Assembly (NCBI GenBank): GCA_903898675.1
Contig: CAIUGM010000006.1
Coordinates: forward strand, 1-64,000
Source of the DNA: an uncultured Verrucomicrobiota bacterium
GTDB lineage: Bacteria > Verrucomicrobiota > Verrucomicrobiia > Opitutales > Opitutaceae
DNA: 64,000 nt
Direction: 5' to 3'
Part shown: positions 27,583 through 53,727 of the stretch, piece by piece
Layout: every line of letters starts with the position of its first letter
How positions within the stretch are numbered: position 1 is the first letter of the stretch
Program-made: the position numbers and the translations under genes
Notes under the pieces: model-generated
What the model was told of the DNA's origin: nothing
What the model saw: only the letters and a program-made list of their open reading frames with translations
The model's database searches: none

Positions 27583-27644
27583 GTTAGTAGTCTATTAAAC
27601 TACAAACGGCCCGGGTCGCACTTGTAGTTTAATAGCCTACTAAC
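27583..27644. repeat. 23-bp inverted repeat 'gttagtagtctattaaactacaa'
   Basis: Arms 27583-27605 and 27622-27644 are reverse complements with one mismatch; core reappears inside fmt. Confidence 0.9.
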
Positions 27645-34749: not shown

Positions 34750-34821
34750 TGTCATGCTGAGCGAAGCGAAGCATCCAGGTGCATGCGCGGATCTGGATTC
34801 TTCGCTACGCTCAGAATGACA
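34750..34821. repeat. Inverted repeat 'tgtcatgctgagcgaagcgaagcatcc ... ggattcttcgctacgctcagaatgaca'
   Basis: Arms read directly between der and fmt. Confidence 0.85.
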
Positions 34822-34840
34822 ACGCAGAGGTCTAACGCCC

Positions 34841-35839
34841 ATGCTTAAGCTCGTCTTCATGGGCTCCGACCCGATCGCCCTGCCGGCGCTGAACTGGCTG
34901 GCCGGGGAGGGGAGCGGTGTCGCCCAGGTCGTCGGGGTCTTCACCCAGCCGGACCGGGCGGCCGGCCGCGGCCAGAAAATTCAGGCCACCGAGATCAAGC
35001 TCTGGGCGGAGGCCCGCGGGCTCCCCGTCCTGCAACCGCAGAAAGTCGGCCCGGCGGAACGCCAGCAACTGCTAGACCTGCAGCCCGACCTGACCCTGGT
35101 CATGGCCTACGGGCATATTTTGCGGCAGGAATTCATCGATGCCCCGCGGCTCGGCACGTTCAACCTGCACACCTCGGTGCTGCCGCACTACCGTGGCGCC
35201 TCGCCGATCCAGACGGCGATCTGCAACGGCGAGCGCGAGACGGGCGTGACGCTCATGCGGCTCGTGTTCAAGCTCGACGCCGGCCCGGTGGCGGAGGTGG
35301 AACGCGTGGCCATCGACCCGCTCGACACGGCCCGGGAAATCGAGGCCAAGCTAGCCGCAGCCTGCGTGCCCCTGCTCGCCCGGAGTCTCGGCAGGATTGC
35401 CGCGGGCGCCCAGACGTTCACGCCACAGGACGAATCCCAGGCGACGTTCTGCCGGCGGCTGGAGAAGGCCGACGGTGCACTCGATTTCCACGCTCCGGCT
35501 GCGGCGCTGGCCGCCCGGATCAACGGGCTCATGCCCTGGCCGGGCTGCACCGTGGCGATCAACGGCCAGGTCGTGAAACTGGGCCTGGCGGACGTTAGTA
35601 GTTTAATAGACTACAAACCGGCCGGGGTCGGGGTCGTGGTTGGCACCGACGAGCACGGCCTGCTCGTCGCCACCGGGCAGGGGACGCTGCGCCTGCGCCT
35701 GCTCCAGCGCCCGGGCGGCCGGATGTTGCCGGCCGGGGAGTTTGTCCGCGGGTTTCCCGTGCCGGCCGGCACCGTGCTGCCGTCGCAACCGATGACCCCG
35801 CTCGTGGCACCGGCGCCGTTTCCGCGGGTCAAGGTCTAA
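34841..35839 (+). CDS. fmt: Methionyl-tRNA formyltransferase
   Basis: LVFMGSDPIALPAL, FTQPDRAAGRG, NLHTSVLPHYRGASPIQTAI, G(T/V)TLM, C-terminal OB-like domain RPGGRMLPAGEF. Confidence 0.94.
   Translation: MLKLVFMGSDPIALPALNWLAGEGSGVAQVVGVFTQPDRAAGRGQKIQATEIKLWAEARGLPVLQPQKVGPAERQQLLDLQPDLTLVMAYGHILRQEFIDAPRLGTFNLHTSVLPHYRGASPIQTAICNGERETGVTLMRLVFKLDAGPVAEVERVAIDPLDTAREIEAKLAAACVPLLARSLGRIAAGAQTFTPQDESQATFCRRLEKADGALDFHAPAAALAARINGLMPWPGCTVAINGQVVKLGLADVSSLIDYKPAGVGVVVGTDEHGLLVATGQGTLRLRLLQRPGGRMLPAGEFVRGFPVPAGTVLPSQPMTPLVAPAPFPRVKV
35594..35618. repeat. Copy of the gttagtag...ctacaaac element inside fmt
   Basis: gttagtagtttaatagactacaaac; core gtagtttaatagactac is the exact reverse complement of the core gtagtctattaaactac at 27583-27605. 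Confidence 0.85.
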
Positions 35840-44628: not shown

Positions 44629-44660
44629 ACGCTGCCTGCCACGCGGGCCAACAATACTGT

Positions 44661-44718
44661 AGCCGGGGTCGCTGACCCGGGCTGCGATACACCAGCACCG
44701 GGGTCAGCGACCCCGGCT
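44661..44718. repeat. Perfect 18-bp inverted repeat agccggggtcgctgaccc
   Basis: 44661-44678 vs 44701-44718. Confidence 0.9.
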
Positions 44719-44768
44719 GCAATCTGCGCTTACGCCGTGCGGGTGGACCCACCCGAATGTGCGCTAAC

Positions 44769-53710: not shown

Positions 53711-53727
53711 GTAACGTCATACGTTAC
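53711..53727. promoter_or_regulatory. Candidate operator palindrome
   Basis: GTAACGT-CAT-ACGTTAC, perfect 7-bp arms, intergenic. Confidence 0.35.

Follow-up and report, generated by a model that had tools for sequence, protein, structure and literature searches.

Repeats of the REP kind usually depend on a tyrosine transposase. In MatP-matS and Noc-NBS, one small DNA-binding protein is paired with tens of dispersed palindromes. To our knowledge, in-gene palindromes like the Rickettsia palindromic elements (RPE) have no known partner. RPEs are reported to be about 150 bp long (PMC10969869). Another account describes shorter CGTC-tagged RPEs without a dedicated transposase, and GTAG-tagged REPs inside genes of Opitutus terrae, both uvrA genes included (PMC3733652).

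We analysed a window of 64 kb (the whole stretch of 64,000 nucleotides) from an uncultured Opitutaceae bacterium, in which fmt carries a short palindromic element. Related palindromes recur around an open reading frame (ORF) of about 120 residues. The system resembles REP/RAYT in that short palindromes occur in inverted pairs, are dispersed as well as in-gene, bracket the gene of a dedicated protein and form several families per genome. It differs in that the bracketed protein is a predicted Cro-like helix-turn-helix (HTH) protein without HUH/Tyr. In addition, the outer bases pair and form no GTAG tag (GTAG occurs only in the AGTC and AGTT types, where it is paired with CTAC), the copy number is low (0-52), and sites at orthologous places differ in type as the protein does. 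The RPEs are the closest in-gene analogue, being in-frame palindromes in housekeeping genes that add a short peptide at a tolerated position; the present unit, however, is 17-25 bp long, has a linked protein, and shows neither a CGTC tag nor a unit of ~100-150 bp. Cro/C1 (XRE) repressors and controller proteins share the predicted fold and a palindrome just upstream of the gene, whereas the sites described here also lie downstream, genome-wide and inside coding sequence. Unlike MatP-matS and Noc-NBS, the system is patchy and multi-paralogue, and its gene is bracketed by sites. As to MITEs, the bracketed protein matched no transposase, the spacers of the pairs are unrelated, and alignments of fmt, LMF1 and rlmN gave no clean empty site from which a target-site duplication could be read. 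Our literature search found no description of this protein-palindrome pair.

The palindrome in fmt and its copies

Table 1. Palindromes and host gene in the window, followed by Fmt-loop palindromes named by genome (part of the 12 found; others exist)
Feature	Location	Strand	Basis
Palindromic element GTTAGTAGTTTAATAGACTACAAAC, AGTT/AGTC type, in-frame in fmt, peptide VSSLIDYK	35594..35618	+	sequence match; copies and Fmt alignment
fmt, methionyl-tRNA formyltransferase, host gene; element in variable loop of C-terminal domain	34841..35839	+	
Left palindrome of intergenic inverted pair, same family as fmt element	27583..27607	.	
Right palindrome of intergenic pair, 37 bp from left one	27620..27644	.	
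GTAACGTCATACGTTAC, likely relic of AACG-type palindrome, same superfamily, one mismatch	53711..53727	+	weak
Fmt-loop palindrome GTAGTTTAATAGACTAC	own genome and G147		
Fmt-loop palindrome GTAGTCCATTAGACTAC	G116		
Fmt-loop palindrome GTAACCTATTAGGTTAC	G040		
Fmt-loop palindrome GTCACCTATTAGGTGAC	G074		
Fmt-loop palindrome GTCATCTATTAAATGAC	G043		
Fmt-loop palindrome GTAACGTATTAATTGAC	G093		
Fmt-loop palindrome GTAACTTAATAAGTGAC	G041		

The fmt product matched both Formyl_trans_N and Formyl_trans_C. The initial annotation placed the start of the element on a codon boundary, and by sequence arithmetic the first base of the element is indeed base 1 of codon 252, from which the peptide is read. On solved Fmt structures, this stretch aligns with a variable segment of the C-terminal domain. 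At up to three mismatches, the 25-mer matched the 64-kb window only at fmt and at 27583, shuffled sequences being expected to give no match. The inverted repeat at 27583-27644, which had been taken for the same element, belongs to the same family; its 31-nt arms are 87% complementary and lie 16 nt apart. The fmt copy reads TTAGTAG-TTTAATAGA-CTACAAA, whereas the other copies of this genome read TTAGTAG-TCTATTAAA-CTACAAA. The remark that the core is inverted relative to the flanks is thus literally true. The palindrome itself is 17-23 bp long with an A/T centre, and none of the other copies repeats the 25-mer exactly. Perfectly symmetric palindromes occur in some relatives.

Pattern searches, by which copies were counted here and in the other genomes, found 12 core copies at seven places in this genome. 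These are five inverted pairs 37-39 bp apart, intergenic where examined, with nearly identical arms and spacers of no common sequence, and two single copies. One single copy lies in fmt; the other supplies the stop codon, at the 3' end, of an integron-integrase-like ORF that has decayed (G000:C12 ~67579-68370; L022:7580-8371). The gene of the HTH protein (G000:C12:67220-67582) is located beyond the window and is bracketed by the genome's own palindromes. The same layout, an integron-integrase-like ORF with its stop in a palindrome, was seen at L076. Integron attC/attI sites, suspected from the intI remnant beside the single copy, were rejected: GTTAGTA/TACTAAC do not fit GTTRRRY/RYYYAAC, and the adjacency to an intI remnant is confined to two loci. 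The window also contains an inverted repeat, TGTCATGCTGAGCGAAGCGAAGCATCC ... GGATTCTTCGCTACGCTCAGAATGACA, directly upstream of fmt (~34750-34823). A GC-rich REP of GTAG type, GTAGCCGGGGTCGCTGACCCGGG, forms an inverted pair at 44659-44720; it is a separate family and is also found near C12:67100 of the same genome.

A palindrome occupies the same Fmt loop in 12 of 31 aligned Opitutaceae species (in two alignment placements) with differing half-sites; the other Fmt proteins of the alignment have unrelated, mostly shorter loops. A test of whether VSSLIDYK is absent elsewhere had been proposed; the peptide is not conserved outside palindrome-bearing genes, and the refuting case named with that proposal, the same residues in Fmt of distant taxa lacking the repeat, was not found. 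The fmt core was compared with dispersed sites of the same genome in six palindrome-bearing genomes with listed sites. It matched other copies exactly in three of them (G074, G043 and G093) and was one mismatch off in G116. In G068 the core resembles a hybrid between two types of that genome, and in G040 it differs. A disagreement between the Fmt site type and the other sites of the genome was also seen in G047 and G096. Overall, the earlier reading of the element is partly supported. A dispersed palindromic repeat lying in-frame in a variable Fmt loop is supported; the view that a palindrome drives movement is not. No clean empty site with a target duplication was found, and the word "inserted" therefore rests on the variation in loop length.

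A small HTH protein bracketed by palindromes

The gene of the ~120-aa HTH protein was found in 102 of 200 Opitutaceae genomes, with up to eight per genome. Of 291 genomes sampled from the phylum, 15 encode it, all within Opitutaceae save one weak match. The protein received no Pfam, NCBIfam or PHROG assignment and weakly resembles YdaS/HTH_3. Its AlphaFold model (mean pLDDT 81) consists of an N-terminal helix followed by a four-helix HTH, and Foldseek gave weak but uniform matches of Cro/C1 type (434 Cro, P22 c2 and SinR; best E 0.44 in PDB). These predictions are a weak but consistent indication of a Cro/C1-like HTH fold. The protein showed no match to Y1_Tnp or any other transposase, no invariant His or Tyr, and no transposase-like residues. 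No partner gene recurs beside it, only an antisense reading of its own ORF, and the loci showed no plasmid or phage match and, in PADLOC, no defence context beyond one match. That match is of one member of the protein alignment (A1) to DpdF (E 2e-6). A distant relative (37%) is encoded by two IMG/VR viral contigs (L205 and L206).

Among 110 HTH-gene loci, 82 have a palindrome within 260 bp upstream and 76 have one downstream, and the density of sites around the gene is 1.21 per kb (0.0025 per kb in shuffles). Several loci that failed the strict pattern have other palindromes on both sides, for example GTTTCACGTAATACGTGAAAC and TTTGCCGTATTACGGCAAA; in G003, which has no sites of the counted types, the gene is bracketed by CTAGTTTCACGTAATACGTGAAACTAG and not by a GTAG-tagged hairpin. 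The half-sites upstream and downstream agree in 68 of 68 loci, against a mean of 12.9 and a maximum of 26 in 1000 permutations. The outer three bases agree in 63 of 68 (permuted mean 25.2).

In the predicted recognition helix, certain residues also track the half-site. CAAC goes with RQ(T/A/Q) in place of RQR (9/9 cases) and AGTC with VC or HC; AACG and AATA go mostly with DC, CACG mostly with EF/EY, and CATC mostly with LL/LF, a covariation that is phylogenetically clustered. The protein tree requires a minimum of 34 changes of site type, and the tree-aware contrasts between residue and half-site are all concordant (2/0, 2/0 and ~3.6/0), in numbers too few for significance. Consistently asymmetric palindromes in G093, TTTGTAGTCTATTAGATGACAAA and the repeated TTTGTAACGTATTAATTGACAAA, suggest recognition of unlike half-sites.

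For two site types counted in the 200 genomes, 765 sites were found in the 102 genomes with the HTH gene and 39 in the 98 without it (means 7.5 and 0.4 per genome), an association that is inflated by the shared descent of the genomes. At least seven sites were present in 32 gene-bearing genomes and in none of the gene-less ones, and 12 of the 98 have sites with no detected HTH gene. Presence is patchy even between close species, with many genomes lacking sites or gene, and one genome may contain several HTH paralogues with different sites. The spacing of adjacent pairs (81 unique pairs) peaks at about 37, 45-47, 56, 66, 77 and 90 bp. The period is ~10.5-11 bp, with an R of 0.55 (maximum 0.39 in 500 null simulations) that is inflated because related loci were partly counted more than once.

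Sites inside genes and their change of type

In-frame palindromes were also found in LMF1 (lipase maturation factor), in RlmN (named from sequence; Radical_SAM in Pfam), and in a glycosyltransferase, a MurC-MurB fusion, a TonB receptor and an MGDG-synthase-like protein. In a SAM methyltransferase their position is shared by at least four species, and in UvrA and a DinG-like helicase by two species each. The host genes form no common class. Some entries in the list of in-gene sites are spurious antisense frames. In nearly all sites no more than one frame per strand is fully open, which explains the codon register of the fmt element.

In LMF1 and rlmN, sites at orthologous positions have the half-site type that flanks the HTH gene of the same genome. 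The LMF1 pair of one genus, which has a homologous 28-nt spacer, is GTCACG in G067, G091, G112 and G174 and GTCACT in G160. In G146 and G026 the pair is AGTGTCACG, an AGT-flanked GTCACG. The LMF1 types equal those flanking the HTH gene in the genomes read (G067, G091, G174, G160, G146 and G026). The rlmN gene of G160 is mixed, with one GTCACT and one GTCACG site, as if in transition, and that of G174 has lost one of two copies in frame. Such a change in place could come about through selection for binding or through copying from active sites.

Possible explanations

The protein-palindrome system is real and lineage-specific, and its architecture and covariation are well supported. In our judgement, with a probability of roughly 0.6, the palindromes are REP-like, dispersed sites to which a dedicated HTH protein binds, and they are tolerated in genes via one open frame. 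Judging from the covariation in sequence, binding of the palindromes by this protein is likely. The palindromes, of the form GT-N4-TA-W-TA-N4'-AC, would be the DNA-binding sites of the predicted Cro/C1-fold protein, which most likely contacts each half-site with one subunit of a dimer and most likely represses its own gene via the upstream site. The sites would spread as short non-coding units, often paired on a preferred helical phase, and would survive in genes when they fall in the single open frame of a tolerant loop. Sites in place would keep matching the current specificity of the protein, and the encoded peptide would change along with them.

There are other possible interpretations of these observations. 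Each site could be kept by selection in a functional host network, the protein being a regulator or a nucleoid-organising factor like those of MatP-matS and Noc. The tracking of the protein by orthologous site types (two half-sites at two sites), the helical phasing of the pairs and the persistence of sites across genera, at one place each in fmt, uvrA and a methyltransferase, would fit such a network. We nevertheless consider it unlikely, in view of the patchy presence, the range of 0 to 52 copies, the coexistence in one genome of several paralogues whose sites differ, the many genomes without any part of the system, and the lack of a common target-gene class. It is much less probable that these are ordinary REPs moved by a RAYT (Y1 HUH transposase) encoded elsewhere, with the HTH gene as a frequent neighbour. 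Such an origin would agree with the size, the inverted pairs and the in-gene copies, and with the GTAG REPs reported in O. terrae genes (PMC3733652). There is, however, no unpaired GTAG tag among half-sites that include GTAG, GTAA, GTCA and others, the bracketed protein lacks an invariant His or Tyr, and the agreement around the HTH gene is complete. Identity with a published GTAG family of O. terrae is unlikely.

Mutation alone can hardly be the explanation. Template switching at quasi-palindromes keeps hairpins symmetric, with no protein in site maintenance; the strong two-sided symmetry would follow, and template switching is known to produce centre flips of the kind seen in fmt. This mechanism, however, leaves unexplained the agreement between unlinked sites and the HTH gene, and consistently asymmetric families such as the one repeated in G093 stand against it.

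It is conceivable, if somewhat doubtful, that the lone protein and its sites are a new class of selfish or semi-selfish DNA, which spreads and co-evolves as a unit without a transposase and rewrites essential genes (fmt, uvrA and rlmN) in place as the DNA-binding specificity changes. A linked protein with a readable specificity would provide a testable partner for in-gene palindromes. The coding sequence of essential genes appears to follow a DNA-binding specificity. Whether dispersed palindromes are selected binding sites or copied elements is a question for which the orthologous sites, changing type along with the protein, offer a natural experiment. A tandem duplication of a palindrome together with its spacer (77 bp, 96% identical) was observed adjoining an HTH gene in G067:C3 (L297/L303).
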